Assembly (NCBI RefSeq): GCF_949628265.1
Contig: NC_088789.1
Span: 32,543,883 to 32,607,882 of the forward strand
Length of the DNA: 64,000 nt
Source of the DNA: Cloeon dipterum
Lineage: Eukaryota; Arthropoda; Insecta; Ephemeroptera; Baetidae
Reading direction: 5' to 3'
Shown here: piece after piece, positions 40,001-64,000 of the stretch
Layout of the letters: each line of letters opens with the position of its first letter
How positions within the stretch are numbered: position 1 is the first letter of the stretch
The notes under the pieces: generated by a model
Database searches by the model: none
The model's input: only the letters and a program-made list of their open reading frames with translations
Told to the model about the DNA's origin: nothing
Position numbers and translations under genes: made by a program

Positions 40001-40209
40001 AAGTTGCTTTGTGGAAGCCTTTTGGTGACGGCAAAATCTCTTTTACTCTCAATTTTTCTCTCCGCTTTTATAAGCGGCTTCGTTCCCAATCCCAAACCAC
40101 CCCTCACACCCGCTGCTTGGAATGTTGTTTGTTATCTTCGCCTTTGCAACTGCCAGGTCATTCACCTTTTCAACCGCAGTGAAAAGGTCGCCTTTGTGTG
40201 CGCGCGTGT

Positions 40210-40514
40210 GTGGCCGCTGCTCATCAAGGTAGAGACCAAGGCTGGACATGGTGTCGGCAAACCCACCGCCAAAGAGGTGAGATCCAAACCTTTTTTGTTT
40301 GAAACTAAGCCGAATGGCCAATTGGAGAAGTCATAAGTTTAGTGTTTGAAGATGAAAACAGGTGGCGCCATGGTTCATTTACTATTTTAACTGCGATTTC
40401 AGATTAATTGATTCAAAATATATTCAATTTTGTTGCTGAAAGTCAAAAATCCTGTTTCAGATTAAAGAGCGAACGGACATCGGGCGTTCTCTGAACATCG
40501 AGTGCGTCTTCTGA
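40210..40514 (+). pseudogene. Prolyl-endopeptidase-like last exons, remnant in arm X
   Basis: Exon part about 40213-40276 encodes PLLIKVETKAGHGVGKPTAK E, the strongly conserved C-terminal prolyl oligopeptidase motif whose His is the catalytic His of the triad. Donor gtgaga at 40277; acceptor TTTCAG at 40455-40460. The last exon 40461-40514 encodes IKERTDIGRSLNIECVF and TGA. The exons join in phase 0. The rest of the enzyme is not upstream (promoter-like DNA precedes it), so this is a fragment. Relative to the X' copy the last exon lacks 12 bp. Identification is from memory of the family motif. Confidence 0.65.
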
Positions 40515-41074
40515 GTTACAAAAAGCTTAAAAACTACCTTCTGTTGTTAATTATGTAACATAAAACGTGCAAGGAAGGAAATAAAAAGGAATTGAGTTCA
40601 ATTAAAACTGCTTTGCTAATTTAGCGATAAATTCCCTACCGAAAACAATAACATTATCATTTGGATTCGGTTTTTATTCATTTTTATTGCTTGTAAGCAC
40701 CGGTTGCGCTCCGAGTGACCCGTCCTCTGACCCCACGGCTGCTGCTCCTTGACCCGACCCGTTCTCTTGCACTCCTTAATTATCTCTTTAGGCGAACACC
40801 GCCTTTTTGTGGCGTGCTCTCTCTCCCTCTTGCAACACGTACACACTGGTGAATTTTGAATTTATTTTTTTATCATTTTATTTGCATCACGTACTAAAAT
40901 TACGATCGAGAAAAAGCGTTTTCAGGTCGACGCCGTGATAAAGTGTACAGAGAGAAAATCATAAATTAATACAGCTCACACACAAGCTTTTGCTTAATTT
41001 TTATACTCTCTCCACATTTGGCCTGCCAAACAACCCTGCGCACACCGCCCGCTGTTTGGAATGCAGCTGCCAGG

Positions 41075-41244
41075 TATATAAACTCGCCTTTCAAAGCGCA
41101 GTGAAAAGGTCGCCTGTGGGATCTCTGCTCGCTCGTTGCAGCTGTAGCTCTCGATCATTGTCCGTCAGAGCATCGAGCAGAGCACACGCCGGTCTTGCTC
41201 TTACCTCGCAACTTTTTCTCGCCTCTTGCAGCATCAGTTATCCG
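41075..41244 (+). promoter_or_regulatory. Core promoter and non-coding leader exon, probably of ankyrin gene C
   Basis: GGTATATAAACTCGCC gives a TATA box at 41075-41082, followed about 25 bp on by GCGCAGTGAAAAGG, a TCAGT-type initiator. The leader runs to a donor (CCGTAAGTC, GT at 41244). The next good acceptor in line is TTGTTTGCAG ending at 43065, 16 bp before the ankyrin gene C ATG; the same acceptor context precedes copies A and D. So the leader is likely spliced to gene C. In X' the TATA box reads TATACAAC. A diverged copy of this promoter lies at 40090-40200. Confidence 0.55.
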
Positions 41245-41365
41245 TAAGTCCCTGACTAAATCACATTGTAAATATTTTTATCGAATGATTGCTCTGAATA
41301 TCCAATCAATAAGTAAGTTTGATCTCAACTCTCCTTCCGTGCCACTAAATCCTGAATTCCTAAAA

Positions 41366-41612
41366 GAAGTGCGCATGCGTCAGACCTGACTGGATGTGAC
41401 AAGGAAGTCATTCGAACAGGTGGATTCTCTGCAAGTGCTCAAACCAGCTCTCACGCATGCGCACTTCTCGCATTCATATTGTTTTGGCGGGAAAAAAGTT
41501 CGCACGTGGCTCTTGACTTTTTCGTTTGAAAAAATATTCACTTTTCCTAATTCGACCCTCAAGAATCGATTGGTGAGCTCAGAAACTACACCAAAGAGAG
41601 CATTTAAACTAT
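41366..41612. repeat. Element B fragment in arm X
   Basis: Lacks the left arm. It retains GTGCGCATGCGTCAGACC, CAGCTCTCACGCATGCGCAC and the right end CCTAATTCGACCCTCAAGAA TCGATTGGTGAGCTCAGAAA. The X' copy at 57165-57420 retains the opposite arm, so the two copies lost different halves. Confidence 0.7.
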
Positions 41613-42516
41613 CTGTTTACCGCAGCAGACCAAACATATATTAATAATGGTTTTTTTCGGTCCTACTCAGAATTGTGTTCTTTTGTCGATTGCTTTTATT
41701 AATATACATGGAAATGTCACGTTTTTGTTCCTCTCACTTTTCACAGCTCGGTCTTCCAATTATGATTTTTCCCCCACATGATACGCAGTTTTTATGATTG
41801 CTATAAAATGTTAGATCAGGGTGCAGGCGAAGTTTTTGACCGATGGCAAGGAGTCGATAGCGCAGACGCGTTTTTCTCCTCTCGAGCGTCGCTTCTTACG
41901 ATAATTCTATCTACAACTATTGCTCCCTCGTCGCTAGAATCAGTTGGTTCTCCTCTGAGCATCAAATAGACTCCATCGGAACTTTTATTTCTTGTGTCAC
42001 AGCATCCTGTGAGATACCATTGCTACAACATTTTTAAGATTTGTTATTTCAATTATTTAATCTGCAAATCACTAGAATTAGTTAAATCATAACCACAACC
42101 CATATAGTTTTTCCATAAAAATTCTTTGCGTTGCCTTTGACGCGATAAACGGCCCATGAAAATTTCAAACTCGCGCTAAAATGCTGAAAAATGTTAGTAA
42201 GTGTTAAAAGGGTTAAAATGACGAATCAATTTCTTAAAATAAAGCGGGCTTTTTAATTAATCATATTGCAGGCAATTTATTCTAAAAATTTGAAATATTT
42301 CATTTATTCGTGGAATTTAGACCCACCGCATAAGTTATTGAACCTTTCCCTGATGAATGTGGTTCATTTTTGCTCCTCAACGCATATCTGCTGCTTCTAA
42401 TGGAAGCGAGTCAGGCGCGGACTGGACCGAAAAGTTGTAAAAAGGAACGGACTGGATAATTATGCTTGTAAGCTAGGAAGACTATATCATTTCCAATTAT
42501 GCTAACTTTAAAACCT

Positions 42517-42740
42517 GTCTTTGACGTGGTTTCTGAGCACACCAATCGATTCTTGAGTGTCGAATTAAGTAAAGTGGATTTATTTTCCGACCAAAAGTGC
42601 AGTGTGCCGTGCGAACTTTTTTTCCCGCCAGAAAAATACGAACTTAAATGCTAGAACTGCGCATGTGTCAGAGCTAGTTTGAGCACTTGCAGAGAGACCA
42701 CCTGCACCTGAACGAATGAATTCTTTGTTAGATCCGTAAT
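42517..42740. repeat. Element B fragment, second in arm X
   Basis: Left half only: TTTGACGTGGTTTCTGAG, CACCAATCGATTCTTGAG, AAAAGTGCAG and GAGCACTTGCAGAGAGACCA C, then truncated. The counterpart in X' is at 56031-56255. Confidence 0.65.
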
Positions 42741-43081
42741 TCTGTGGCAAATTCCCTTTCACTCGTTTATTTTTGGTATTTCTTTCTCCCCAAATGGCTC
42801 ACTGCTTTGAATGCGAGCGTCTCAATGCACGGAATGAACTTAAAAAAACCAAGAACTGGCCACTATTCCAGCCATCCCGTAAAATCATATATTTTGCGAG
42901 TTTTTCAACTTGTTTGCTACTAACAAATTAAAAGCTAAACTGAATTCAGTTTCCATGCAGCATTCAAATGGTGGGCAAAAGTAGGAAAAATTGAAATCAT
43001 ACACATGCTACACTCTAACGATAAGTCAAAAATAAATTTTTTCAACACCCCTTTATTGTTTGCAGCCCCGACTAGCCAGCG

Positions 43082-44683
43082 ATGAGCAGCATAAAGGAGA
43101 AGAAAACTGTAAAAAATACAGTTACAAGTACGAACGGTGAGTTACAAACATAAACATAGAAATCGTTATTACAAATTCCTTTATCAGGAGTACACGAGAA
43201 AGAGCCGGAAAATCCTCAGGATGTGACATTGGAAGAACAGCAAAAAGATACGCTTAAGACCAAACTGGATAACGTCAAAGCGAAAAGAGGCGACCTTCCC
43301 GCTCTGCATTTTGCGGCCATGGAGTCGGATGTTGAGGTTTGCCGTCATCTCGTGGAAAAGGAGGGCGCCAATGTAAATGAAATATGCAGAAGATCTGGCG
43401 CCACTCCTCTGCACTACGCTGCCAAGAACGAAACCCACGCAGATGCTCTGATCGACTTTTTCATTGAGAAAGGATGCGACTTCGAAAATAGTGATTCTCA
43501 TCATTGTTGGCCTATCGATTTTGCGATCCGAGTGGGAAATTTCGAGCTTGCAATCAAATTGTTCCACCTATCACATAATCGTCAAGAACCTGCAAAACGA
43601 TGGAGCTTGCTACGCTTTTCTATATGGAAAAACAACATCAAATTTGCTAAATTCGTCTATAAAGACGATATGAAGTTTTGCAATGATCCGGAATATGATC
43701 TTGAAATTCTTCTGACAGCATGCATGTATGGAGATTTGAAAGTCTGCAAGTGGGTGTTTGAAGAGGTCAACATACACTTCAGTTCGATTTGGGGAGACGC
43801 ATTGAAAAACAAAATTCTATGCCATGCAGCTACGAATAGTTACCAAGCAAGACAAAACCTTCAATATCTGTTCTCAAGGTTCAAACTCTCCTCTGATGAA
43901 CAAAGAAATGCTTTTGGGAACGCTCTTGTGTCAGCAATTCAAGGACTACCTTTCAATGCTGTAAAAGCAGAAGAGTTTATTCAGTTGTTAGGCAGTAATG
44001 TTAGGCTCAAAATATCAGGATTTACTTTGATGCATCACGCCGCGACAAACAGTGTAGCCGCATTGGAGTTTGTGCACAATAAGGACGCAAGCCTGATCAA
44101 CGAGGTCAGTGACGATGGTGCCACAGTTCTCCATCTCGCTGCAATGAAGGGAAGCGAGGACATATGCACGTGGCTGATCAATCACGGACAAAACATCTTC
44201 GCCGTGAACAAAAACAATGATGGAACTTTTCTCCATTACGCTGCTCAGAACGTGACAAACGGACACTTGATCATTCATAGATTTGGAACTGAACTCCGCG
44301 ACATTGTGAACCGAATCGACAAATACTTGTACACTCCTCTTCATTGGGCCTTGGTCAACGAAGATAATGCAAATGAAATCGCTAGAGCTTTGCTATGCTA
44401 TGGTGCCGATTTGAGCGTGATAAGAAATGGAAACAACTTCCTTCACTTCTGCATCGTTAAGGGCAAGTTAAAGAGTGCCAAATTCGTTCACGCCATTGAC
44501 AAAAATCTGATCAAGGAAAAGGGAGAGGAAGGAAAAACCACCCTGCACATTGCTGCCGACCATTTCAATGAAGAAATCTGCGCATGGCTGGTGAGTGAGG
44601 GAGCCGATCCTCAAGAAATTACCGCCGGAGGAAAAACTGTGCTAGAATCCACTTGCAGTGAGGAGGCCAGGAAGTTTCTCTGA
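43082..44683 (+). CDS. Ankyrin-repeat protein (copy C), intact
   Basis: Exon 1 43082-43136 (MSSIKEKKTVKNTVTSTN), donor gtgagt, acceptor TTTATCAG, exon 2 43188-44683; 516 aa. Ankyrin repeats: ALHFAAMESDVEVCRHLV (about 57), TPLHYAAKNETHADALIDFF (about 91), PIDFAIRVGNFELAIKLF, then a helical middle (TACMYGDLKVCKWVFE), and a C-terminal set: TLMHHAATNSVAALEFV, TVLHLAAMKGSEDICTWLIN HG, FLHYAAQNVTNGHLIIH, TPLHWALVNEDNANEIARAL L, FLHFCIVKGKLKSAKFV, TTLHIAADHFNEEICAWLV. No signal peptide. Probably an intracellular interaction scaffold; partner unknown. Pairs with copy D in the inverted arm X'. Confidence 0.9.
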
Positions 44684-44788
44684 TCGTTGATCACAATTAA
44701 GAAATAGAAATTTCTTCAAGAATCGATTCATTGAATGTAATGCGGCATTTTCAATATGCGAATTAACGATCCCCTCTGTTTAGCTATG

Positions 44789-44794
44789 AATAAA
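44789..44794 (+). promoter_or_regulatory. Poly(A) signal of ankyrin gene C
   Basis: AATAAA in GCTATGAATAAATACAAG, about 105 bp past the stop. The mirrored copy for gene D is TTTATT at 53971-53976. Confidence 0.55.
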
Positions 44795-45838
44795 TACAAG
44801 AAAAAAATGTATACAGCTTTTATTTAACTAACACAAAAAAACATAGCAAATCACACTACTTGTTCCACACATATTAAAAAGCGCGGTGTCTGAACAGGTT
44901 CAAAACTAAATAATTTCTTTCGTCGAAGTGTTTCATACACACGGAACGTTAAGAACCATATTTTGGAAATGGACATCGCCACATCACCCGAAACGTGAAC
45001 AAGTCAAGTGACAGTCGGAATATATGGGATGGGTCACATGACAAGTTTCACGCGATATCATTGGCTTATCGGCTATCAAGTACGCTCTCACCCATCTCCA
45101 TTCTCTATGATAAGCTCTTTATTTTTCAAAGAAATTTCAAAGCGCAGTGAAACTGGCAAAGGTTGCCCATGTTTCACCCTGAGTACTTTTCGTCAGGTGT
45201 GGCGTCGGTTCTGGGACCACTATCTGCGATGCGGAATTTATCTGGAATCATTTTGAGACCAAATTCAAATATCGATCAAAGCAATATCCTAAAGACTCGG
45301 AATGCAATTTTGCATGTTCCGTATAAGGATCGTTGATACGGAAACTGATAATTAGGGATATAATTAGTAATCAAATTACTCAGCCACGATTACTACTGGC
45401 GCACAATGACGGGAAATCAAGTTTGAGATTTTTTGCCACACCTGATTTTATATTTAGTTCTTTGTTAGTATACATCTGTTAAGAAAAGATAATTTTGGAA
45501 AAATAAAAATGAAAAATCGCTCTAAAAGGGTTTGTTAAACCAGAGCTCCTACTGCGAATGATAGAATCACGTGCACTTGAGATGAAAACAAGGTCACGAA
45601 GGTCTCAGATGCGAGTCTGGATTGATTTTGAACTTGGACCTTTCGCCCTCCACGCAACAGCAACACATAATCTAAATCGTAAACAACGGAATGACGCAAT
45701 AAGTTTTAGAGGTCATTCGCCAACTGGGGGCAACTGGCCAAAAGTATCATCGACTCGATAATTTAATCTGACTAGAAGTGCTGTGCGTGACGGTCGCAGC
45801 AGCAGCCCTGGTCCATCGCGTGCGGAGAAGAAATCACG

Positions 45839-48800
45839 ATGAGGCTCGGACTTTTCGTCCTCCTCAGCCTCGCGGGTTGCGCCGCGCAAACGTCTCGGAG
45901 CGACGTCTACATTCCACCTCCGTGTAAGTTATTCTTATTTTTTTCTTTTTGCGGAGCTTACAATTAGGTTAGTTATAATGGAACATTTTCAAACGATTTT
46001 GGCCCAAAGTAATTTGAAGGATCACAGTAAAACAAACCGAATCAAGGAAGTATTTTTAAAAAAAAAGAAACCGATCATTTAAATTTAACAACCACTCGAT
46101 TTTAATAGAGTTAAAAGTATAGTATAGTTTCCCCTCGCAGATTTTGATGAAGGAGAAAACCTGAGTAGCCAGAACTGTGGAAACGAAACCGCTTTACGTC
46201 AGAACCAATGGATCGTTGATGTTACAAACATGCGTACTCGAGCTAAGTGCTTTAATTTTATAGTGCTTTCTCAAAGGACCATTCTTACTCGAGGTAACAT
46301 GATAATATCTTGCTTAAGAATATCAACATCAGAAATACTTTATTGTCTAGGAGATTATTGTGATTTCAATAAAAATGATACAACTGATCTTCGGGTCTTT
46401 CCGGAATACTGTACATGGCGCCAAAAAGAAGAAGAATGCTTGAGAGTTTCCGTCAAAGTAATTTTCAGCCAAACCGTTGCAATTCACACAATTTATTTAA
46501 CGACTTTTTCAATTATTTAAGGTACTGGATGTAATGCAAATTGTCACGAATCCTTCTGATCCTTTTGAAATCACGATTATGATAACTGAGAAAATGCCGA
46601 CTGTGGAAAATCCCCTTTGTTTGTTTAACCGTGACAACGTAATGGATTTGCAACTTCAAAGAGATTCACCCTACTTCCTATGGAACCCAGCTGTTCGTAT
46701 TCTCGAGCTAATTTCTGCAGGTAGACTTAGACTAATTTTGAATCTATTTTTATAGACGATTCCACCAATCGAAGGTAAGTTTGTTAAATATGTAAATATA
46801 AGAAAAACCGTATTTTAATCTTAAACTATCGGCGCTAGAATTAAACAAATGTATCGTATGTATAGCTTCATAGTAAAAGAAAATGTAATTTTTAATCTGC
46901 ATGGTTTTTAAATTAAAATTTATTTTGACGTTTTCAACTATCCATACAAATATAAATCCACTATTAACGAAGGTATTTTATAATAAAGTTGCATTGCATT
47001 TACGTAAATGAGCAGGAAATATATTGCTGGCTGATCGTGAGCTAAATTGAAATTTAAATAAATTTGTTCTTGTTGAATTATTTTTTCTTATATCAAAATC
47101 AGTCTTGTATTACTCGGACAAAATAATAATTTAAAATGAATAGAAAGACAAAAATTAAAGAGATTTTGTCAATTACTTCAGAGAAAAACAATAATTTAGA
47201 ACCATTCCCAGCGAGCGTGCAATTAAACCTATTCAAATTCCGGGAATAATAAATTTAATTTTAATAAATTTTAAAGTGAGGACGGTTAAAGGCTGTTTTT
47301 GGACTATAATCATAGTCACATATTAAATATTTTCATCTGTGACATATTTGTTAATGCCATTGGCACGATTTCGCTTCGTTTTTGACAAATTTTACAGTGA
47401 ATGTGACGGGCCAAAGCAACTGCAGCGCGGTTCTAAGCAGTGATGACTTGGATTTTTCGGAATATTACAAAATTCGCAACATTCCCATCCAGAATATCCT
47501 GTGTGTCGAGGAAACCATTTTTGGTAAGAATTATATAGAAAAATTCATCTCGTTCAATTTCAATGATTGTCATTTATTGCCACAAAGAGTATAGCTATCT
47601 GATCAACTTCTACAAAGGCCGGTATTTCTTGAGAGGTATTAAACACGGTCCCATTCACCGTTTTTACATTGATTTATTGCCATACATTGACGAGATCGCA
47701 ATGCACGCAAAAGACATTTCTGCTCTACGCCCAATCCCAGAGACAAAACAACCTAGAGGTATAATTTTACACAAATTAGCTCACGCAGCGTGCAGTTTTA
47801 TATCTCTTTAAAAAAAAGGATTCACCACGCCAGACAACCTCAGTTTTCCAAACTGCGGAAGCAAACCGACGTCAACCAGAAGGAAACGAGAAAATGACGA
47901 TTCTTCCACAGAATTACCATCGATCGCTGGTCAAATTTTAGGTGGAAACATTTCTCAGACTGGCGATCATCCTTGGCATGCTTACATTGAGAATTCTCAA
48001 ACTGGAAGAAAATGCGACGGGACATTGATTTCGCCGACAGTAGTTTTGACCGGTATTGAAGCGAAGAAATTATATATTTCTTGACTTATTCGATTTAAAA
48101 TGTTATTTTTAGCTGCGAATTGCCTTCAGGGATCAAAAGCAGAGGACTTCATAGTTTCTGTTGGGATGAATGATAAAAGACAAAGAACAGCCCCTGGTGT
48201 TCAGAGAAAAAAGGTTTCACCTTCCAAGTAAATTCTTTACATCCGCATAATCATTTTGAAAACATTTTAGCCTAGCATTCTAATCACGCACCCGAAATAT
48301 GACTCTGCGGAATTCATTAGTGACGACATCGGCCTCATCATTTTGAGCGAAAAAGTCGAGATATCTGACAATATCCGACCGATTTGCTTGTGGAACGACG
48401 ACTCTGACCCTAACTTGAAACGCGTGGCTGGAACTGAAGCTATGGTATATATAGGGATGCATGAAATTTGGAAAAAAAATCTAAATTTTGTGTTTCTTTT
48501 TACTGAAGGTGGTTGGGTTCGGGCTTGCTGACAACGACACATTGCCAGATAAACTGCAAGAGGTTCGACTGCCGATTAGAACTCACAAAGAGTGCTATAC
48601 TTGTCGAAAAGGAGGTTTTTCGGGAAACTTTTGAGGCCGGGAAACAACTTTTGCGCCGGCTACACGAATGGTTAGAATCTCCTAATTTATTAATTATCGT
48701 TTTCTCAATTTTATTTATTAATTCAGAAACGACCGCCTGCAACGGGGACAGCGGAGGCAGCCTCTCAGTGGAAAAAGACGGCCGCTGGTTCATCAGGGGC

Positions 48801-48950
48801 ATCGTCAGCTTTGGCACGTCGAAAAAAGTGATGTTCGAGGGCGAAGAAACACCGTTGTGTCACCCAAATCTATATTCCTTGTTCGCTGACGTCGCAGGTT
48901 ACGTGGACTGGATCGTGGAAAACACGCCGGACATTGCATTCCGGAATTAA
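45839..48950 (+). pseudogene. Two-domain serine protease homologue gene with a 2-bp frameshift in the last domain
   Basis: Exons: 45839-45923, 46141-46457, 46522-46720, 47398-47523, 47588-47758, 47819-48052, 48113-48213, 48271-48444, 48509-48670, 48727-48950. The ATG opens a signal peptide (MRLGLFVLLSLAGCAA). Domain 1 (exons 2-5) is a degenerate trypsin fold: QWIVDVTN, CFNFIVLSQRTILTRGNMI in place of the His loop, EITIMITEKMPTVENPLCL, GRYFLRGI; no triad residue remains. Domain 2 has ILGGN, HPWHAYI, CDGTLISPTVVLTAANCL, DDIGLIILSEK, NGDSGGSL. Asp102 and Ser195 are kept but His57 is Asn, and the position-189 residue is Thr. Phases agree except in exon 48509-48670, where a TA duplication at about 48597 (GTGCTATACTTGTCG) shifts frame and gives a stop. 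The copy at 63.9 kb lacks it. Secreted; any role would be as a non-catalytic SPH. Confidence 0.8.
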
Positions 48951-48959
48951 ATGTGTTTT

Positions 48960-50880
48960 TAAAACAAGAAGTTTAGTAAAAAAGGATTAATGGGTTTTCA
49001 GTAGAAAAATGTAGACATGGTCAGCTTAATCTCTTATCAAATAAAGTTATGGGATTTTTATAATAAATGGTTATATAAAATTTTAATTGCTCGGCTTTTA
49101 ATATTAAAGCCGCAAACACGAAATTATTTTAGCCGCCTCTCTGCTTCGTGCTTATCACACATTTGGGAGAAGAGAAAGAGGTCAAATCCGTGACCTTTCG
49201 TCCGTGGCCTGGTTTCCGTCTGGTGAGAATCCACTCTTCTGTTTTTGCAACCACACTTCGAGGTAATGAAGCTGATATAATTCAAATTATTATACTTGAA
49301 GGAAATATTTAATATTTATACTGCGCATGTCTCACATTTGCTATGGTCAGAAGATCTTTTAATTTCCGTTCCTGATTATTTTTCTGCACTTAATTCCAAG
49401 TTGATTGTTTCTAAATTTGTTTTTTTAACAATTATTCAATATTATACACAATTCGACATTTATTTTATGACATTATGATCTCCCTTTTTTTCTTTGTAAA
49501 TCGATTATTGCCTCTTTTATTAGCTTAAAAAATTATCCAAAATATTTTCATTCTAGTAGATTTTAAATAAGATGCAGCTGCCTCACTGCTTCCGTTTTTG
49601 TTCAAACCTTTTTTGCTTACATCTGAATGTTTTGATCATAAATTTGACGCAACGAAAGAACCAGCTCATGCTTCATTTAATTGCGGTGCTATATTATGTA
49701 ACACACTGTCAAAATGAACAAATTAGAAGCGAAATAAAGTAATTGGGCGTGATCAGCGACACGAGCACCAAAAGAGCTTTTGCGCGAATGAAAAGAGGTC
49801 AATAGATCATCAGTGTGGCGCCGACAAACGACCAAAATGCAACCAACATCGCCTCAACTTGCCAATTTAAATATCAATTTTTGCCGACGCAAATCCTGAA
49901 TATGGTGGCTTCAGTGTCGAAATATATGTTAATTTCCTCTTAATCTTTGAATAAAATAATTTTTGATATTCTAATGAAATTAGTGTCTTGAAATTAGAAT
50001 ATTTTATCATAAAAATATACATTCCTGCGAGCTACCTGAATCGGCGTTCCTTATATTGATAATAAAAAATAGAGCATTTTAAAACGTTCGTCGATATTTT
50101 TAATTGATGCAATAAAAAGTGCGAAATTGAGACTGTTTCATTTCATTACTGTTTTAGTGATTGACTTAATGACTTAAAATTAGCATTTTTTGTTTCCTAA
50201 AAAGTAACAAAAAATATTAATATAGCTTAACTCTTTTATTTTTAAGTTTTTCACTCATAAATCGAACTTTCTCAATTAATATTAAGCCGCACTCTGCTCC
50301 AGCGTCACGGAGGCATAATTTTTTTCCGAAAAATGTCTCCAGTTCTATTATTTGGCATCTGGTCGATCAGCAGGCGGCGTTTTTTAATAGCGAGAATCGG
50401 CGGAAAGCGAAGCAGAGCAGAGCAGCCGCGTCATCCGGCCGCTTTTAATTTACGCGGCGGCAAGCGGACTTGTTTTTCTCCCGCAGCGATAAAAGAGCCT
50501 CGGACCATTTTTCACAGTGCGACTATAAATACTAGAAGAAAATTCTTCGAGACACAAATAAATAACATTTTTGAGTCGACCGAACAGTTTATTTTATTCT
50601 TTTGTGGATCTGTGAGAGAAAATTTCAGAAATATATAACAATGCAAGAATCATTCGAAAACAATTAAGAGGTCACGAGAAGGTCTCAGATGATGCGAGTG
50701 TGGCTTGACTTTGAACTTTTGGCCTTTTCGACCTTTACGCAGCAGCAACAGATTAAATCGAAACTGAAGCTATTAGTTTGATAAAAATAGTTCACAGTGA
50801 AAAATAGAAAATTATTTTCGAGAAAAGAGCAATTCACGAGGTGAGTTTAATTGGGATGTGTTCAACTGACGTGTTTTCCT
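48960..50880. other. Spacer in arm A; no gene recognised
   Basis: AT-rich DNA matched in A' at about 61620-63540. Less AT-rich parts: 49140-49265 (CGTGACCTTTCGTCCGTGGC C; GTGAGAATCCACTCTTCTGT) and 50280-50530 (GCCGCACTCTGCTCCAGCGT; TCTGGTCGATCAGCAGGCGG CG; CCGCGTCATCCGGCCGC), the latter ending in TATAAATACTAG at 50523, a TATA-like site on the + strand. The 101-codon frame at 50333 is not kept in A', so I read the block as regulatory or an element remnant. Confidence 0.5.
50660..50790. repeat. Short dispersed repeat (GAAGGTCTCAGAT...)
   Basis: GGTCACGAGAAGGTCTCAGA T, GCGAGTGTGGCTTGACTTTG AACTT and ACGCAGCAGCAACAGATTAA AT recur upstream of the protease gene at 45585-45690 and, inverted, at 26030-26120 and 61700-61800. 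Four copies; no coding sense. It may be part of a duplicated promoter or a small element. Confidence 0.55.
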
Positions 50881-51194
50881 TTATTCCTCAAAAACGCCCG
50901 CAGAACTTTAAAATATGCATTTTGCCTTGCATGAGTGTGGAGCGTGTATAGTGCCTTTTACCTAATTATAAAACAAAACGCGCTCATCACTCCCTTTCAA
51001 GTAACGCCTACCACGAATTAATTTAGCGTTAGCCTTGAGAATGCTTCTAAATATACAGGAAAAAATTGAAGAGCAGGATAACGACTCACAAGAGAAATCT
51101 AGAAAATTACTTGAATATTTTTGCCCCGAATATATTTCTAATTCCTAGAATTTTTTTTGTCTTCCTGCCTAAAAACTCAGAGTATTCCAAATAG

Positions 51195-51582: not shown

Positions 51583-51594
51583 GCTGAGGCGAAG

Positions 51595-53442: not shown

Positions 53443-54081
53443 AAATTAATTTTGCCAAAAATAAAATGGACATACCTCAATTTTAAAAATTCCTGCATAT
53501 AAAATTACTAAATTCTTCCAAACCATTGTGACATTTAATTAATATATAATATTCCAGAATAAATATTGAAAAATAGCATGCGATCAAAGGTGAGGACGCG
53601 CACAGGCGTCCTTTTCACTGCGCTTTGAAAATTCTTTGAAAAATTAAGAGCTTATCATAGAGAATGGAGATGGGTGAGAGCGTACTTGATAGCCGATAAG
53701 CCAATGATATCGCGTGAAACTTGTCATGTGACCCATCCCATATATTCCGACTGTCACTTGACTTGTTCACGTTTCGGGTGATGTGGCGATGTCCATTTCC
53801 AAAATATGGTTCTTAACGTTCCGTGTGTATGAAACACTTCGACGAAAGAAATTATTTAGTTTTGAACCTGTTCAGACACCGCGCTTTTTAATATGTGTGG
53901 AACAAGTAGTGTGATTTGCTATGTTTTTTTGTGTTAGTTAAATAAAAGCTGTATACATTTTTTTCTTGTATTTATTCATAGCTAAACAGAGGGGATCGTT
54001 AATTCGCATATTGAAAATGCCGCATTACATTCAATGAATCGATTCTTGAAGAAATTTCTATTTCTTAATTGTGATCAACGA

Positions 54082-55690
54082 TCAGAGAAACTTCCTGGCC
54101 TCCTCACTGCAAGTGGATTCTAGCACAGTTTTTCCTCCGGCGGTAATTTCTTGAGGATCGGCTCCCTCACTCACCAGCCATGCGCAGATTTCTTCATTGA
54201 AATGGTCGGCAGCAATGTGCAGGGTGGTTTTTCCTTCCTCTCCCTTTTCCTTGATCAGATTTTTGTCAATGGCGTGAACGAATTTGGCACTCTTTAACTT
54301 GCCCTTAACGATGCAGAAGTGAAGGAAGTTGTTTCCATTTCTTTTCACGCTCAAATCGGCGCCATAGTATAGCAAAGCTCTAGCGATTTCATTTGCATCA
54401 TCTTCGTTGACCAAGGCCCAATGAAGAGGAGTGTACAAGTATTTGTCGATTCGGTTCACAATGTCGCGGAGTATGGGTCCAAATATATGAATGATCCTGA
54501 ATCCGTTTGTCACGTTCTGAGCAGCGTAATGGAGGAAATTCCCATGATTGCTTTCGTTCACGGCGAAGATGTTTTGTCCGTGATCAAACAGCCACGTGCA
54601 TATGTACCCGTTTCCCTTCATTGCAGCGAGATGGAGAACTGTGGCACCATCGTCACTTACCTCGTTGATCAGGCTTGCGTCCTTATTGTGCACAAACTCC
54701 AATGCGGCTACACTGTTTGTCGCGGCGTGATGCATCAAAGTAAATCCTGATATTTTGAGCCTAACATTACTGCCTAACAACTGAATAAACACTTCTGCTT
54801 TTAAAGCATTGAAAGGTAGTCCTCGAATTCCTTGAATTGCTGACACAAGAGCATTCCCATAAGCATTTCTTTGTTCATCAGAGGAGAGTTGGAACACTGA
54901 GAACAGATATTGAAGGATTTTTCTTGCTTGGTATCTGTTCGCAGCTGCATGGCAAAGAATTTTGTTTTTCAATCCGTCTCCCCAAATCCAACTGACGTGT
55001 ATTTGGACATCTTCAAACAACCACTTGCAGATTTTTAAATCTCCATACATGCATGCTGTCAGAAGAATTTCAAGATCATATTCCGGATCCTTGCCAAACT
55101 TCATATCGTCTTTAGAGACGAATTTAGCAAATTTGAAGTGGTTTTTCCATATAGAAAAGCGTAGCAAGCTCCATCGTTTTGCAGGTTCTTGACGATTATG
55201 TGATAGGTGGAATAATTTGATTGCAAGCTCGAAATTTCCCACTTGGAGCGCAAAATCGATAGGCCTAGAATAATGAGAATCTCTATTTTCGAAGTCGCAT
55301 CCTTTCTCAATGAAGAAGTCGATCAGAGCATCTCCGTGGGTTTCGTTCTTGGCAGCGTAGTGCAGAGGAGTGGCGCCAGAACTACTGCACATTTCATTTA
55401 CAACGGCGCCCTCCTGTTCCACGAGATGACGGCAGACCTCAACATCCAACTCCTTGGCCGCAAAATGCAGAGCGGGGAGGTTTCTCCTGTTCGTTTTGAC
55501 GTAGTTCAGTTTGGCCTTTAGCGTATCTTTTTGCTGTTCTTCCAATTTCATATCCTGAGGATTTATCGGCCCTTGCTCGTGTATTCCTGATAAAGGAATT
55601 TGTAATAACGATCTATGTTAATGTTTGTAACTCACCGTTCGTACTTGTAACTGTATTTTTTACAGTTTTCTTCTCCTTTTTGCTGCTCAT
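54082..55690 (-). CDS. Ankyrin-repeat protein (copy D), intact
   Basis: Exon 1 55690-55636, exon 2 55586-54082; 519 aa. Same plan as copy C, with three extra residues (IRG insertion near ISAIQGIRGLP). The N-terminal two-thirds differ from copy C at many positions (CSSSGATPLHYAA, SRPIDFALQVGNFELAIKLF, VQIHVSWIWGD), while the C-terminal roughly 65 residues (from DKNLIKEKGEEGKTTLHIAA on) and the 3' flank are identical. The leader acceptor TTTGCAGCCCCGACTAGCCA G is kept, but the counterpart of gene C's TATA box is TATACAAC. Probably an intracellular scaffold. Confidence 0.9.
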
Positions 55691-56030
55691 CGCTGGCTAG
55701 TCGGGGCTGCAAACAAAAATAAGGGTTGAAAGAATTAATTTTTAACTTATCGTTAGAGTGTAGCATGTGTATGATTTCAATTTTTCCTACTTTTGCCCAC
55801 CATTTGAATGCTGCATGGAAACTGAATTCAGTTTAGCTTTTAATTTGTTAGTAGCAAATAAGTTAAAAAACTCGCAAAATATATGATTTTACGGGATGGC
55901 TGGAAAAGTGGCCAGTGCTTTGTTTTTTTAAGTTCATTCCGTGCATTGAGACGCTCGCATTCAAAGCAATGAGCCATTTGGGGAGGAAGAAATACAAAAA
56001 ATAAACGAGTGAAAGGAATTAACCACAGAA

Positions 56031-56255
56031 TTGACAAAGAATTCATTCGTTCAGGTGGTCTCTCTGCAGGTGTTCAAACTAGCTCTGACGCATGCGCAGT
56101 TCTAGCATTTAAGTTCATATTATTCTAGCGGGAAAAAAAGGTTGGCACGTCACGCTGCACTTTTTGGTCGGAAAATAAATCCACTTTACCTAATTCGACC
56201 CTCAAGAATCGATTGATTTGCTCAGAAACTACGTCAAAGACTGGTTTTAAAGTTA
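56031..56255. repeat. Element B fragment in arm X'
   Basis: Contains CAAAGAATTCATTCGTTCAG, GAGGTC-type GGTCTCTCTGCAGGTGTTCA A, CTCTGACGCATGCGCAGTTC and the end CCTAATTCGACCCTCAAGAA TCGATTG. Counterpart of 42517-42740. Confidence 0.65.
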
Positions 56256-57164
56256 GCATAATTGGAAATGATATAGTCTTCCTAGCTTACAAGCGTAATT
56301 TTCCAGTCCGTTCCTTTTTACAACTTTTCGGATCAGTCCGTACCTGAGTCGCTTCCATTAGAAGCAGCAGATATGCGTTGAGGAGCAAAAATGAACCACA
56401 TGCATCAGGGAAAGGTTCAATGACTTATGCGGTGGGTCTAAATTCCACGAATAAATGAAATATTTCAAATTTTTTAGAATAAATTGCCTGCAATATGATT
56501 ATTTAAAAAGCCCGCTTTTTTAAGAAATGGAATCGTCATTTTTACGCTTTTAACACTTACTAACATTTTTCAGCATTTTAGCGCGAGTTTGAAATTTTCA
56601 TGGGCAGTTTTTCGCGTCAAAGGCAACGCAAAGAATTTTTATGGAAAAACTATATGGGTTGTGGTTATGATTTAACTAATTCTAGTGACTTGCAGATTAA
56701 ATAATTGAAATAACAAATCTTAAAAATGATGTAGCAATGCGGTAACACTCACAGGATGCTGCGCCACAAGAAATAAAAGTTTTAGAAGTTCCGATGGAGT
56801 CTATTTGATGCTCAGAGGCGAACCAACTGATTATAGCGACGAGGGAGCAATAGTTGTAGATAAAGTTATAGTAAGAAGCGACGCACGAGAGGAGAAAAAC
56901 GCGCCTACGCTATCGAATCCTTGCCATCGGTCAAAAACTTCGCCAGCACCCTGATCTAAAATTTTATAGCAATCATAAAAACTGCGTATCATGTGGGGGA
57001 AAAATCATAATTGGAAGACCGAGCTTTGAAAAGTGAGAGGAACAAAAACGTGACATTTCCATGTATATTAATAAAAGCAATCGACAAAAGAACACAATTT
57101 TGAGTAGGACCGAGGAAACCATCATTGTTATGTTTGGTCTCCTGCGGTAAACAGATAGTTTAAA

Positions 57165-57420
57165 TACTCTCTTTGGTGTAGTTTCTGAGAGCTCACCAAT
57201 CTATTCTTGAGGGTCGAATTAGGAAAAGTGGATATTTTTTCAGACGAAAAAGTGCAGCGCGCGACGTGCGAACCTTTTTCCCGCCAAAACAATTTGAACG
57301 TATTTGCGAGAAGTGCGCATGCGTCAAAGCTGGTTTTTGAGCACTTGCAGAGAGACCGCCTGTTCGAATTACTTTCTTGTCTTATGCAGTCAGCTCTGAC
57401 GCATGCGCATTTCTTTTAGG
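57165..57420. repeat. Element B fragment, second in arm X'
   Basis: Left arm CTTTGGTGTAGTTTCTGAGA G, TTCTTGAGGGTCGAATTAGG and AAAAGTGCAGCGCGCGACGT G, then GAAGTGCGCATGCGTCAAAG C and GCTCTGACGCATGCGCATTT. It keeps the arm lost from 41366-41612, so the original element was complete before the duplication. Confidence 0.7.
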
Positions 57421-57939
57421 AATTCAGGATTTAGTGGTACGGAGAAGGAGAGTTGAGATCAAACTTACTTACTTATTGATTGGATATCAGAGCAATCATT
57501 CGAGAAAAATGTTTAAAATGTGATTTAGACAGGGACTTACTGATTACTGGTGCTGCCACAGGCGAGAAAATATTATGAGAGAAGAGCAAGGCGATGTGCT
57601 CGGCGCTCTGACTGACAATTAGAGCTGCAGCTGCGACGAGCGAGCAGAGATCCCACAGGCGACCTTTTCACTGCGCTTTGAAAGGTGAGTTGTATACCTG
57701 GCAGCTGCATTCCAAACAGCGGGCGGTGTGCGCAGGGTTGTTTGGCAGGCCAAAAGGGGAGAGAGTATAAAAATTGAGCAAAAGCTTGTGTGTGAGCTGT
57801 ATTAATTTATGATTTTTTTTCTCTGTACACTTTATCACGGCGTCGACCTGAAAACGCTTTTTCTCGATCGTAATTTTAGTACGTGATGCAAATAAAATGA
57901 TAAAAAAATAAATTCAAAATTCACCATTGTTTGTTGCAA

Positions 57940-57974
57940 GAGGGAGAGGGAGAGAGAGAGAGAGAGAGAGAGAG
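57940..57974. repeat. (AG)n microsatellite
   Basis: GAGGGAGAGGG followed by about 13 AG units. The corresponding place in arm X (about 40818-40838, inverted) has only a short CTCTCTCTCCCTC run, so the tract expanded in X' or contracted in X after duplication. Confidence 0.85.
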
Positions 57975-58276
57975 CACGCCACAAAAAGGCGGTGTTCGCC
58001 TAAAGAGATAATTCAGGAGTGCAAGAGAACGTGTCGTGTCAAGGAGCAGCAGCCGTGGGGTCAGAGGACGGGTCAATCGGAGCGCAACCGGTGCTTACAA
58101 GCAATAAAAATGAATTAAAACCGAATCCAAATGATTATATTATTGTTTTCGGTAGGGAATTTATCACTAAATTAGCAAAGCAGTTTTAATTGAACTCAAT
58201 TCCTTTTTATTTCCTTCCTTGCACGTTTTATGTTACCTAATTAACAATAAAAGGTAATTTTTAAGCTTTTTGTAAC

Positions 58277-58600
58277 TCAGAAGACGCACTCGATGTTCAG
58301 CGAACGCCCGATGAACGAGAGAATGTCCGTTCGCTCTTCAATCTGAAACAGGATTTTTGACTTTCAGCACCTAAATTGAATATATTTTGATTCAATTAAT
58401 CTGAAATCGCAGTTAAAATAGTAAATGAACCATAGCGCCATCTGTATTTATCTTCAAACACTGAACCATGACTTCTCCAATTGGCCAATCGGCTTAGTTT
58501 CAAACAATAAAGGTTTGGATGTCACCTCTTTGGCCGTGGGTTTGCCGACACCATGTCCAGCCTCTTGGTCTCTACCTTGCTGAGCAGCGGCCACACGCGC
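58277..58600 (-). pseudogene. Prolyl-endopeptidase-like last exons, remnant in arm X'
   Basis: - strand. The last exon 58342-58277 encodes IEERTDILSFIGRSLNIECV F and stop, acceptor TTTCAG. The penultimate exon ends at 58526 (donor gtgaca) and encodes the KVETK..GHGVGKPTAKE region, but with a 2-bp AG insertion near 58566 (ACCAAGAGGCTGG) that breaks the frame before the catalytic-His motif. The last exon is better kept than in arm X; the penultimate one is worse. No upstream enzyme exons follow. Confidence 0.65.
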
Positions 58601-59559
58601 GCGCACACAAAGGCGACCTTTCTCTGCGGTTGAAAAGGTGAATGACCTGGCAGCTGCAAAGGCGAAGATAACAAACAACATTCCAAGCAGCGGGTGTCAG
58701 GGGTGGTTTGGGATTGGGAACGAAGCCACTTATAAAAGCGGAGAGAAAAATTGAGAGTAACAGAGATTTTGCCGTCACAAAAAACAATACAACTTTCAAA
58801 ACAAATTTCAACCAATGCATAAACTCGTCTCTTAGGATTCAGTTAAAGCCTAAATTGACCTAAGGAGCGCTGTAAATTTTTTGAGAAATTTGGCTGGAAT
58901 AAAGTTAGCGTGCTTTTTAAATGGTAGTGGCTATCTCCTTAATTGAAATCCGATTTAATTTCAAAACCAAGAGTTTCCGCAATAAGTGGCATACACCGTT
59001 GAACAGATCTCGACGAGAGGAATCGGAATATGTGAAGAAAATACATATGTTCAAGCACTGTAAATTTTGGAGAAAATTGGCAAAATTTGAAATTTTACTG
59101 TAGGAAGGTCATTTTTTTATAATTCCTAATTGTTGAACAAATTGTTTATCGGTCAATTTTTTAAGGCATCCAACAATTTAAATCATTTTCAATTGTTGCC
59201 CAGTATCATTCCACTTTAAATGAAATAAATATTTTAGCTTTCTATCGTTGAGTTTAATGCTAAAATTACATGTCGAATTGATTTTCGCTATTTACAAGAA
59301 AAGTTTGCTCGTTTCCTATTTGATTCAAGGAAATAAAAAATTATTCCTATACACTAAGATTATGATCTCTACACGATTAAAACTATTTTTGCACTCGTAA
59401 AACACTGGAAATTGATACCTCATCAGGAATAAAATGGATCTATTCCATTTGCAACAAAAGCAATATTAAATCTAATATAATTCTTACTTCACTAACTTCA
59501 CAAAAAATACGTGTATTCCCACGTTCATGGTTTCTAGAGCCAAAAATTTCCATCATCAA

Positions 59560-59841
59560 TCAGGCAACAACGGAAATTCTCTCAGAGCTTACAAGTTTTG
59601 TTTACTGTTGCAATTCAACGGTCTGATTGCCCGAGTTGGATGACGAAGCAACTCTTTGAGAAAGGACGGAATTCTTTCTTTTACAAAAATTATAAATATC
59701 TTCCACACTAGGAAGATATATTTGTAGGAAGGGGGGAAAAGTGATTTTTGTTCCTACATTGTGCTTTTTTTCAAGTGTTCTTGCACTAAGTATACATTTT
59801 CTAAAAAGGAAATATGCGGTCACATTATTTGAGACAACGCA
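59560..59841 (-). pseudogene. Decayed C-terminal remnant of truncated C2H2 gene 7
   Basis: - strand homology to full-length members continues beyond the stop (GCAAGAACACTTGAAAAAAA GC; TTCCTACAAATATATCTTCC T), out of frame. Counterpart of 52123-52400. Confidence 0.55.
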
Positions 59842-60369
59842 CTATGGTCGAAAGCAAGAATTGAGATGCTGCTCATACAAACCAAAGCAGTCAAATTGGT
59901 GTCTGCAGACTCTGCAATGTTTCGGTTTCACATGACGATACCAATCTCCTGATTTGACTTTTTCGCTGCATTCGTCGCAGTTTTTTGTTGTGTGGCGTCC
60001 ACGTTTATGATTCTGCAACTTGAGCTCTGTATCGAATTTCTTCTTACACGGAACACATTCCAAGTTCAGTTTCAAATGCTGGTACATAATGTGTTGTTTT
60101 ATAACTTTCTTTCGCGTGAATATCTTACCGCAAAAGTGGCATTTGAACACATGGACCTGCTTTATGTGTTGTTTTATCTTTTCTTTTTTGTCCAGTCCAT
60201 CAAAATACACGGGACAATTTTTGGGGCATTTTATGGCTTCTTTGTGCTGCGTGTCCACATGCGAATAGATATTTTCTCTCCACATCTCTTTTTTGCAGAC
60301 TGAGCATTTTATCTTCTTGATTGCCCCTTTGCTGCATCCGGGCTTATCCTTTTTCTTGCCGCCGTCCAT
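59842..60369 (-). CDS. C2H2 zinc-finger protein, ZAD-less family member 7 (truncated form, arm A')
   Basis: 175 aa from the ATG at 60369, differing from member 6 at two residues only (GLDKKEKIKQH versus GLDKNEKRKQH). Segment order is as in member 6, ending CRVCRHQFDCFGLYEQHLNS C then FRP and stop. The 5' leader block (about 60560-60800) and the further-upstream GAGCGCGTTTTGTTTTATAA T segment (about 60990) are present. Intact frame in both arms; function unknown. Confidence 0.75.
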   Translation of the reverse strand: MDGGKKKDKPGCSKGAIKKIKCSVCKKEMWRENIYSHVDTQHKEAIKCPKNCPVYFDGLDKKEKIKQHIKQVHVFKCHFCGKIFTRKKVIKQHIMYQHLKLNLECVPCKKKFDTELKLQNHKRGRHTTKNCDECSEKVKSGDWYRHVKPKHCRVCRHQFDCFGLYEQHLNSCFRP

Positions 60370-61924
60370 CTTCGCCTCAGCCTTGGAAATTTTTTTAAAA
60401 TCATTCTTTCATTTATAATATCTAACAATTTGCTTACCTAATTTAACTAATCAAAATCCTAGTAAAGCAATCAAATCGCCCGAAATTCCTTCACACGCTG
60501 CTTGCTGATCGTTTAAAGATATTTTGATTACATTTTAAAATTTGAGATTAATCACCAGCTTACCTAATTGCAGTACTTCCTGGACGTTCAGCGCTTTTCA
60601 ATCGATCTTTTTCTCCCTGGTCAGGACGATTCTTTTGGCTCTCAATATAGACAATCGCCAAGGCAGCAGCGCGACTCTTCCAATTCTCCGTCTTATCTCG
60701 TAATATAAACGCTGCGAAGAATGACGAGCGAAAGGAGAGACCAGTTGGAAACTCAATACTTTTCTCCACGCTATTTGGAAATCATGGAATCCTCAGAATT
60801 TTTTAGGGCAGAAGACAAAAATAATTCTAGGAATTGGAAATATTCGGGGTAAAAATATTCAAGTAATTTTCTTGATTTCTCTTGTGAGTCGTTATCCTGC
60901 TCTTCATTTTTTTCTTGAATATTTAGAAGCATTCTCAGGCTAACGCAAAATTAATTCGTGGTAGGCGTTACTTGAAAGGAAGTGGTGCGAGCGCGTTTTG
61001 TTTTATAATTAGGTAAAAGGCACTATACGCGCTCCACTCTCATGCAAAAGGCAAAATACATAATATTTTAAAGTTCTGCGGGCGTTTTTAGGCGCTTTTG
61101 TTGGACTAATGTTATCTGACGTTTTTATTTGCTTTGTCGCAGAGCTCTGACATATAAGAAAATTCCTGAAATATATTTTCTTAATACCACGGAATTTTCC
61201 ATCAAGAGGTTAAAACCATAATCAGCTGCTCTCCCCTTCAATAAATACGACTTTTAGATGAGAAAAGTGGGCGCGGCTAATAGAGCGAGAGGAGATTAAA
61301 AACTTTGCTTTCTCTTCTTTCACAGCAAAGTGTTAAAATGAATTAAAAAGAGTCAGTTTTTCAAAACTAATTGTTATATTCTTACAGTTTTTACGAAAAA
61401 AATACCAAGAATTTAGTTTTCTTAAGTAAGAGCCTTGACATAACAAAAATACAAATAACATGTGATCATTTTGGAGGTTGCCTCTATATAAACGAATCGA
61501 AATTATCAATTGCAATCACGTTGAGCTTGATTAATTCATGTTCGAATTTGGTACAATCCTGCATTAGAATTGAGGAATAAAGGAAAACACACACGTCAGT
61601 TGAACGCATCCTGATTAAATACTCACCTCGTGAATTGCTCTTTTCTCGAAAATAATTTTCTATTTTTCACTGTGAACTATTTATTTTGTGGTTGTAAGTA
61701 TAACTTCAGTTTCGATTTAATCTGTATCGCTGCTGCGTAAAAAGGGCGGAAGGCCAAGTTCAAAGCCATCGCATCATCTGAGACCTTCTCGTGACCTCTT
61801 AATTGTTTTCGAATGATTTTTGCATTGTTATTTTTGAAATTTTCTCTCACAGATCCACAAAAGAATAAAATAAACTGTTCGGTCGACTCAAAAATGTTAT
61901 TTATTTGTGTCTCGAAGAATTTTC

Positions 61925-62190
61925 TTCTAGTATTTATAGTCGCACTGTGAAAAATGGTCCGAGGCTCTTTTATCGCTGCGGGAGAAACAAGTCCGCTTGC
62001 CGCCGCATAAATTAAATGCGGCCGGATGACGCGGCTGCTCTGCTCTGCTTCGCTTTCCGCCGATTCTCGCTATTAAAAAACGCCGCCTGCTGATCGACCA
62101 GATGCCAAATAATAGAACTGGAGACAATTTTCGGAAAAAAAAAACATGCCACCGTGACGCTGGAGCAGAGTGCGGCTTAATATTAATTGA
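61925..62190. promoter_or_regulatory. GC-rich block in arm A' (mirror of 50280-50540)
   Basis: Inverted copy: CCGCCTGCTGATCGACCAGA, GCCGGATGACGCGGCTGCTC, CCGTGACGCTGGAGCAGAGT GCGG, with ATTTATAGTCGCACTGTG at 61931, i.e. a TATA-like TATAAAT on the - strand. The open frame differs in length between arms, so it is not treated as coding. Confidence 0.4.
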
Positions 62191-63542
62191 GAAAGTTCGA
62201 TTTATGAGTAAAACGTATAAAAATAAAATAGTTAAGCTATATTTATATTTTTTTACTTTTTAGGAAACAAAAAATGCTAATTTTAAGTCATTAAGTCAAT
62301 CACTAAAACAGTAATGAAATGAAACAGTCTCAATTTCGCACTTTTTATTGCATCAATTAAAAAATATCGACGAACGTTTTAAAATGCACTATTTTTTATT
62401 ATCAATATAAGAAACGCCGATTCAGGTAGCTCGCAGGAATGTATATTTTTATGATAAAATATTCTAATTTCAAGACACTAATTTCATTAGAATATCAAAA
62501 ATTATTTTATTCAAAGATTAAGAGGAAATTAACATATATTTCGACACTGAAGCCACCATATTCAGGATTTGCGTCGGCAAAAATTGATATTTAAATTGGC
62601 AAGTTGAGGCAATGTTGGTTGCACTTTGGTCGTTTGTCTCGGCGTGAAGAGACAGGGTCCGCCACGGCGCCACACTGATGATCTATTGACCTCTTTTCAT
62701 TCGCGCAAAAGCTCTTTTGGTGCTCGTGTCGCTGATCACGCCCAATTACTTTATTTCGCTTCTAATTTGTTCATTTCGACAGTGTGTTACATAATATAGC
62801 ACCGCAATTAAATGAAGCATGAGCTGGTTCTTTCGTTGCGTCAAATTTATGATCAAAACATTCAGATGTAAGCAAAAAAGGTTTGAACAAAAACGGAAGC
62901 AGTGAGGCAGCTGCATCTTATTTAAAATCTACTAGAATGAAAATATTTTGGATAATTTTTTAAGCTAATAAAAGAGGCAATAATCGATTTACAAAGAAAA
63001 AAAGGGAGATCATAATGTAATAAAATAAATGTCGAATTAAGTATAATATTGAATAATTGTTAGAAAAACAAATTCAGAAACAATCAACTTGGTAATTAGT
63101 GCAGAAAAATAATCAGGAACAGAAATTAAAAGAGTCTTCTGATCATAGCAAATGTGAGTGAGACACGCAGTATAAATATTAAATATTTCCTTCCAGTACA
63201 ATAATTTAAATTATATCAGCTTCATTACCTCGAAGTGTGGTTGCACAAACAGAAGAGTGGATTCTCACCAGACGGAAACCAGGCCACGGACGAAAGGTCA
63301 CGGATGTGACCTCTTTCTCTTCTCCCAAATGTGTGATAAGCACGAAGCAGAGGCGGCTAAAATAATTTCGTGTTTGCGGGTTTAATATTAAAAGCCGAGC
63401 AATTAAAATTTTATATGACCATTTATTATAAAAATCCCATAGCAAAATTATTTTGATAAGAGATTAAGCTGACCCCATGTCTACGTTTTTCTACTGAAAA
63501 ACCATTAATCCTTTTACTAAACTTCTTGTTTTAAAAACACAT

Positions 63543-63982
63543 TTAACTTCGGAATGCAATGTCCGGCGTGTTTTCCACGATCCAATCCATGTAACCTGCG
63601 ACGTCCGTGAACAAGGAATATTGATTTGGGTGACACAACGGTGTTTCTTCGCCCTCGAACATCACTTTTTTCGCCATTCCAGAGCTGACGATGCCCCTGA
63701 TGAACCAGCGGCCGTCTTTTTCCACGGAAAGGCTGCCTCCGCTGTCCCCGTTGCAGGCGGTCGTTCCTGAATTAATTAATAAAATTGAGAAAACGATAAT
63801 TAATAAATTAGGAGATTCTAACCATTCGTGTAGCCGGCGCAAAAGTTGTTTCCCGGCCTCAAAAGTTTCCCGAAAAACCTCCTTTTCGACAAGTAGCACT
63901 CTTTGTGAGTTCTAATCGGCAGTCGAACCTCTTGCAGTTTATCTGGCAATGTGTCGTTGTCAGCAAGCCTGAACCCAACCAC
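63543..63982 (-). CDS. Serine protease homologue, 3' exons of the second copy (in frame; gene continues past window)
   Basis: Two exons on the - strand: 63982-63823 and 63766-63543 (TAA), joined in phase 1. They encode VVGFGLADNDTLPDKLQEV..., HKECYLSKRRFFGKLLRPG, NNFCAGYTNGTTACNGDSGG SL and IRGIVSSGMAKKV to DWIVENTPDIAFRS. The catalytic Ser loop GDSGG is intact and the exon is 2 bp shorter than its arm-A counterpart, which restores the frame seen in typical trypsin-fold proteins (CYLSK...NNFCAGY). Whether this copy has His or Asn at the His57 position lies outside the window. Confidence 0.85.
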
Positions 63983-64000
63983 CTTTAGTAAAAAGAAACA

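Follow-up and report, generated by a model that had tools for sequence, protein, structure and literature searches.

Rearrangements of the duplication-inverted triplication-duplication (DUP-TRP/INV-DUP) class carry an inverted copy of a segment between two like-oriented copies. For the example at human PLP1, template switching at short homologies has been proposed (PMC4352052), and in the human Y palindrome P6 long inverted arms around a spacer exchange sequence by gene conversion and can also invert (PMC3723533). Gene arrays shaped by birth, death and conversion offer a further comparison. Here we describe an ankyrin-repeat and zinc-finger gene locus of Cloeon dipterum that lies in a 64,000-nucleotide window (contig C4, NC_088789.1, positions 32,543,883-32,607,882) of a 190-Mb genome assembled in 10 contigs. 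A preliminary description of the window had read in it two inverted duplications interleaved in the order X-A-X'-A' and had suggested that X' might flip by recombination. We analyzed the window together with its flanks, 40 kb on the upstream and 160 kb on the downstream side, 264 kb in total; coordinates above 64,000 continue the window numbering past its edge on the same contig. Based on this wider neighborhood we conclude, with a probability of roughly 0.86, that the locus represents one large inverted segmental duplication in a multi-megabase ankyrin/zinc-finger array, with arms of ~17 kb and a 5.7-kb spacer that holds a third unit of the ankyrin gene ank1. A literature search made without the organism name returned no description of the ankyrin locus or of the X-A-X'-A' layout among the listed titles and openings of abstracts.

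X comprises an ank1 gene unit and the upstream region that separates it from a second ankyrin-repeat frame, ank2, A is a zinc-finger gene block, and M lies between X and A (Table 1). Self-comparison of the window bore out both matches of the preliminary description: X pairs with inverted X' (40,020-45,152 and 53,613-58,783) at 92.75% over 5,215 columns, and A pairs with inverted A' at 95.8% (50,890-53,147 and 58,812-61,089), with a further inverted match of 93.6% between 48,491-50,891 and 61,570-64,000 when only the window is considered. Judged by length and identity, these alignments exclude chance as their source. The limits that had been set for the second pair, 48.5 kb for A and 64.0 kb for A', reflect the window edge, and the match continues beyond both. 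Across the 264 kb, 40,875-50,891 pairs inverted with 61,570-71,631 over 10,138 columns at 93.9%, 38,967-39,725 with 71,647-72,388 at 91.5%, 38,500-38,981 with 73,379-73,845 at 87.6%, and 36,293-38,416 with 74,077-76,195 at 89.3%. By self-BLAST and arm alignment, a left block of 16.9 kb (36,293-53,147, ank2-X-M-A) pairs inverted with a right block of 17.4 kb (58,812-76,195, A'-M'-X''-ank2') at 95.0% identity over 15,576 aligned columns, a collinear match interrupted solely by arm-specific indels of 1,001, 456+679, 482 and 145 bp. X'', at 67,352-71,631 and shortly beyond the window edge, is a second inverted copy of X, to which X' is direct (53,613-57,898 against 67,352-71,631, 91.7%), and the X copies accordingly run forward, inverted and inverted along the contig. 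Segments specific to one arm include 61,089-61,570 in A' and 39,725-40,875 in the left arm. Between the arms lies a spacer of 5,664 bp (53,148-58,811) that contains X', and of which 53,240-53,560 matches nothing else in the 264 kb. Another ank1-ank2 unit, oriented like the right arm, is found at 77,346-84,154.

The order X-A-X'-A' holds within the window alone; the full order along the contig, ank2-X-M-A-[X']-A'-M'-X''-ank2', comes from sequence past 64,000, and the interleaving is apparent because the window end cut off the rest of the mirror image. A chance interleaving of two independent inverted duplications would match the window's own order and the difference in identity between X-X' (92.8%) and A-A' (93.6-95.8%), but the A match extends through M into X'' and ank2', which makes one arm with one partner block and leaves a separate event to be postulated for X' only. 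As a complete description, the double duplication is refuted by the sequence past 64,000, and we consider it scarcely credible. On the evidence of the alignments, a single arm comprises both X and A, and the spacer holds X' as a third X copy. Adjacent inverted copies are also a familiar failure mode of assembly, in which two haplotypes or a chimeric read are placed end to end in opposite orientation. Against this, the 264 kb contain no N bases, the arms are 5% diverged and carry arm-specific indels of 1,001, 456+679 and 482 bp, a distinct 5.7-kb spacer with joints of its own separates them, and diverged copies occur nearby in either orientation (within the 264 kb, BLAST pieces that are no shorter than 1 kb and have 85% identity or more comprise 24 direct and 18 inverted ones). 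Given the divergence, the large indels and the spacer, an artefact of a hairpin read or of haplotypes is very unlikely. The locus has two long collinear inverted arms on one contig and a center that holds a further X copy, and no inverted copy within the 264 kb is longer than its 17-kb mirror block. More generally, a fixed viewing window can make a plain inverted duplication look interleaved.

The joints of the spacer bear on how X' came to lie between the arms. At the left joint, 53,566-53,621 matches the 5' flank of the ank1 unit at 77-80 kb (80,299-80,354) at 87.5%, and the sequence passes through TTTCACTGCGCTTTGAAA (53,613-53,630) into the 3' flank of X'. Copies of this 18-bp motif are present at 41,089, 45,135, 53,613 and 57,666 as well as at other C4 sites; genome-wide there are 13 exact copies, all on C4 at 31.70-32.90 Mb and six of them at this locus, and five copies with one mismatch, two of which are on C2 and C5, whereas the reversed control gave 0. 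A tandem duplication at the 18-bp repeat would leave just such a joint of a 5' flank to the next unit's 3' flank. By subtraction of coordinates, seven of the 13 exact copies lie 1.6-2.1 kb upstream of ank1-type frames, and the motif is possibly a shared promoter element. At the right joint, the X' match to the copy at 80.6 kb stops at 58,803 and A' begins at 58,812. X' and A' closely adjoin, as had been described; the gap is 28 bases when measured from the X match (58,783/58,812) or 8 when measured from the match to the 80.6-kb copy (58,803). A' is truncated here, since A runs on to 53,189, as does the copy at -16.1 kb, and further to 53,237, an extension that it has in common with four other zinc-finger units. 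A TATA-like box read by eye at 58,731-58,738, with conserved counterparts in X and the 80-kb copy, points towards A' and is a putative ank2-side promoter. The 482-bp segment by which A' exceeds A was likely lost from A, because its parts match other units.

Identity along the arms is uneven: by 300-column block it spans ~88-95% near ank2, 87-99% within X, 93-99% within M and 92-100% within A. Between the arms, the longest stretch of identity covers 724 aligned columns, with 581 gapless (52,225-52,805 and 59,160-59,740), while the longest run obtained in 2,000 trials with shuffled mismatches was 283 over the whole arms and 429 when M and A only were shuffled at their own rate. Constraint alone is insufficient to account for the 581-bp identity because its next paralogs are only 90.5% and 87.8% identical across the first ~525 bases. 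Similarly, X and X' have in common an identical stretch of 698 bases (44,422-45,119; permutation maximum 233 in 2,000), over which X'' is 96.7% identical to X, and the longest X'-X'' run within X, 164, was reached by 0.15% of shuffles. Informative sites among the three X copies number 387, of which 174 join X and X', 122 join X and X'' and 91 join X' and X''; they fall in 173 runs compared to 249.8 expected, and none of 5,000 shuffles gave a number as low. With the 77-kb unit as outgroup, shared derived states number 55 for X and X', 21 for X and X'' and 18 for X' and X''. In a coding tree of eight ank1 copies X pairs with X' (100/99), contrary to position: the positional partner of X is X'', and the adjoining M and M' are mostly 95-99% identical. 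The copies are mosaics that bear the signature of non-allelic gene conversion. Both the 724-column run and the X mosaic indicate conversion tracts between the arms, a signal to which uneven mutation or constraint could have added.

We infer that X' once belonged to a tandem duplication of ank1 with its junction at the 18-bp repeat that flanks ank1 units, that an inverted copy of the block was then joined to X' by end joining or replicative template switching, and that the copies later exchanged tracts through non-allelic gene conversion. The arms, the spacer, its joints and the mosaic identity are directly visible in the contig, and the locus as a whole is most likely a by-product of a rearranging gene array. 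Several points weigh against this account. The structure is read from a single assembly, and the order of events from three copies between which conversion seems to have taken place; X' could instead be the youngest copy, derived from X, because the coding tree pairs it with X. The longest X-X'' run within X is just 164 (95% point 125; reached by 0.45% of shuffles), and since the permutation tests treat mutation as even over the length of the arms, uneven constraint could partly exceed them. Moreover, at 85% identity or more the 264 kb contain 18 direct and seven inverted BLAST pieces of at least 2 kb, and 11 direct and two inverted pieces of at least 3 kb. Because both of the latter inverted pieces belong to this locus, the array does not usually give rise to long inverted copies, whereas short ones are common in it.

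Flipping of a segment flanked by long inverted repeats is plausible from the layout. A stronger proposal is that X' is flipped through A/A', or M-A through X/X', at a frequency that lets both orientations segregate, which would change the neighbor that adjoins the ank1 upstream region. Perfect inverted identities of 581 and 698 bp are present, those of 581 bp flanking X' at a distance of 6.35 kb, and the conversion-like tracts suggest that the copies pair. Modelled on paper, the layout permits four single-step inversions, each of which switches other pairs between inverted and direct: a flip through A/A' would turn X' and make X and X' direct, and a flip through X/X' would turn M-A and make A/A' and M/M' direct. 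Loss or gain of A'-M' between X' and X'', ~13.7 kb, is a predicted by-product, because these two copies are already direct. The inverted repeats IR3 on the human Y chromosome are cited in the P6 study with an inversion rate higher than that of P6 (PMC3723533). The same source counts mostly conversions in P6, 56 compared to three inversions, as ascertained in the outer part of the arm (PMC3723533); in addition, only one orientation is present in this assembly, and nothing seen at this locus connects orientation with expression. On balance, we regard a segregating switch as unlikely and take conversion without inversion to be the cautious expectation. Far more doubtful is the idea that inverted ank1 copies constitute a diversification device, in which conversion among inverted and direct copies would shuffle rapidly evolving ankyrin surfaces (open frames at a dN/dS near 1), flips through A/A' or X/X' would alternately set up deletion-prone direct pairs, and ank1 repertoires would differ between individuals; if it were true, individual repertoires would be as expected of a gene family in conflict with parasites. 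With three oriented copies, mapped identical tracts and clear predictions for inversion and deletion, the locus is a usable test bed for inverted-repeat recombination.

An ank1 query found 20 non-overlapping places in the 264 kb, counting ank2-type frames and fragments, and a zinc-finger query found 10. Genome-wide, the ank1 query gave at least 38 relatives of near-full length, with 39% identity or more across no fewer than 454 of 507 residues, a lower bound with 85 of 685 candidates scored; among the matches listed, all 38 lie in C4:30.34-32.96 Mb (2.6 Mb) in both orientations, and 34 have no internal stops. We estimated the ratio of nonsynonymous to synonymous substitution rates (dN/dS) with our own script for pairwise Nei-Gojobori comparison, using the eight local ank1 copies among the 20 places that are near full length and have ~70% identity or more, to the exclusion of a 46% copy, fragments and ank2 types. 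dN/dS was 1.11 for X-X', 1.27 for X-X'' and 1.19 for X'-X'', and it ranged from 0.78 to 1.27 over all 28 pairs, none of which differed from equality with |z| above 1.4. Seven of the eight frames are without a stop, while random substitution simulated for six ank1 pairs produced on average 3.3-7.8 stops and left zero stops in 0.05-3.6% of trials. Open frames at a dN/dS near 1 suggest constraint mixed with diversification, with the values blurred by conversion. For comparison, dN/dS was 0.59-0.74 for ank2 (10 pairs) and 0.71-1.85 for the zinc-finger copies (15 pairs). Ankyrin core positions 8, 9 and 11 are almost invariant in ank1. Positions 2, 3, 5, 13, 14 and 33 of the repeat, which make up the ligand face in designed ankyrin proteins, vary at 0.319 compared to 0.231 elsewhere, a difference matched by 116 of 5,000 random six-position sets; this signal is weak, and we set aside an enrichment of variation on that face. 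The ank1 array resembles a fast-evolving family, and its role is worth finding.

The ank2 and ank1 frames of the left arm are divergently oriented. Immediately outside this arm lies a broken ank1 relative (34,571-36,096), consisting of a 165-aa open frame, which contains an ankyrin domain, plus a 3' piece that stands apart from it. Downstream on C4, direct duplications that carry distant ankyrin frames lie at 143,848-165,158 and 180,182-184,622 and reach 96.7% identity. The zinc-finger frame of A also matches zf-C2H2_4 (1.8e-5, 25.5 bits), under the cut-off of 27. Zinc-finger relatives are located on C4, C2 and C5, and M-like DNA occurs at further sites on C4 as well as on C2, C5 and C1. Very large arrays of C2H2 zinc-finger frames occupy C2:1.7-4.9 Mb and C4:28.7-32.5 Mb, with at least 207 matches to one query when 150 of 1,609 candidates were scored, and within the window zinc-finger genes form a direct tandem duplication of ~8 kb at 87-89% identity (16,875-24,804 and 26,118-33,784). 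Short self-inverted-repeat elements (~76-80%) of foldback or miniature inverted-repeat transposable element (MITE)-like type are present at 18-454, 7,665-8,105 and 13,897-14,288; relatives of the last of these lie inside X and X' at 41,392-41,608, 42,507-42,735, 56,032-56,251 and 57,156-57,409. Frames at 1-7,400 have a TIL domain, a match to F5/8 type C that is weak and under its cut-off and, by eye, an LDL-receptor-like cysteine pattern, and perhaps belong to a hemolectin- or SCO-spondin-like gene. No RNA family reached its gathering score in the window, and no TTAGG array was found in the terminal 1.5 kb of each of three contig ends, where complex satellite-like repeats are present instead.

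Table 1. Positions of the features of the inverted duplication and its genes, in window coordinates.
Feature	Position	Strand	Remarks
Left arm (ank2, X, M, A)	36293..53147	+	partner 58,812-76,195, inverted, of which 64,001-76,195 outside the window
ank2 ankyrin-repeat frame, 464 aa	36775..38169	-	Pfam Ank_2 7.5e-26; mirror copy 74,324-75,715, tblastn 83%
X: ank1 gene unit and upstream region between ank1 and ank2	40020..45152	+	self-comparison
18-bp motif in the ank1 5' flank of X	41089..41106	-	direct repeat at 45,135-45,152, 3' flank of X
ank1 frame of X, stop-to-stop, 507 aa	43160..44683	+	Pfam Ank_2 1.4e-47; 13 hand-picked ankyrin-repeat anchors
Trypsin-type protease exon in M	48507..48950	+	Pfam Trypsin 2.9e-4, 21.2 bits (cut-off 20.6)
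A: zinc-finger gene block	50890..53147	+	self-comparison
C2H2 zinc-finger frame of A, 184 aa	51568..52122	+	zf-C2H2_jaz 7.9e-5, 23.2 bits (cut-off 22.6)
Spacer holding X'	53148..58811		5,664 bp
Left joint of X'	53566..53630	+	5'-flank remnant of another ank1 unit fused via 18-bp microhomology (53,613-53,630) to the X' 3' flank
X': third ank1 unit	53613..58783	-	inverted to X, direct to X''; self-comparison
ank1 frame of X', 511 aa, open	54082..55617	-	frame and domain analysis
Right joint: ank2-facing end of upstream region fused to A'	58803..58812		no evident homology
Right arm portion inside the window (A' and part of M')	58812..64000	-	extends to 76,195
Zinc-finger frame of A', 188 aa	59842..60408	-	97.8% to A
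482 bp in A', missing from A	61089..61570		parts match other units at 28.4-28.6 kb and 25.6-25.9 kb

With its X copies forward, inverted and inverted, the locus does not have the layout of the DUP-TRP/INV-DUP class. It is nonetheless like the example at human PLP1 in having three copies of a segment, inverted members among them and near inverted repeats (PMC4352052). The likeness to P6 lies in the long inverted arms around a spacer, the arm-to-arm gene conversion and the possibility of inversion, but the arms of P6 are more than 99.9% identical (PMC3723533) and those described here 95.0%. Also unlike P6, conversion here is patchy, a gene of the arms is present once more in the spacer, and the locus sits inside an array of many related copies. 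A Y-type gene-converting palindrome in the strict sense has more than 99% identity, and at this locus only local blocks reach 99-100%; with 95.0% overall, we reject that reading. With gene arrays that evolve by birth, death and conversion the locus has in common many open frames, copies in both orientations, conversion and joints at short homologies, and nothing in it is fundamentally different from them. It is a real structure of a known kind, whose reported peculiarity is explained by where the window ended.

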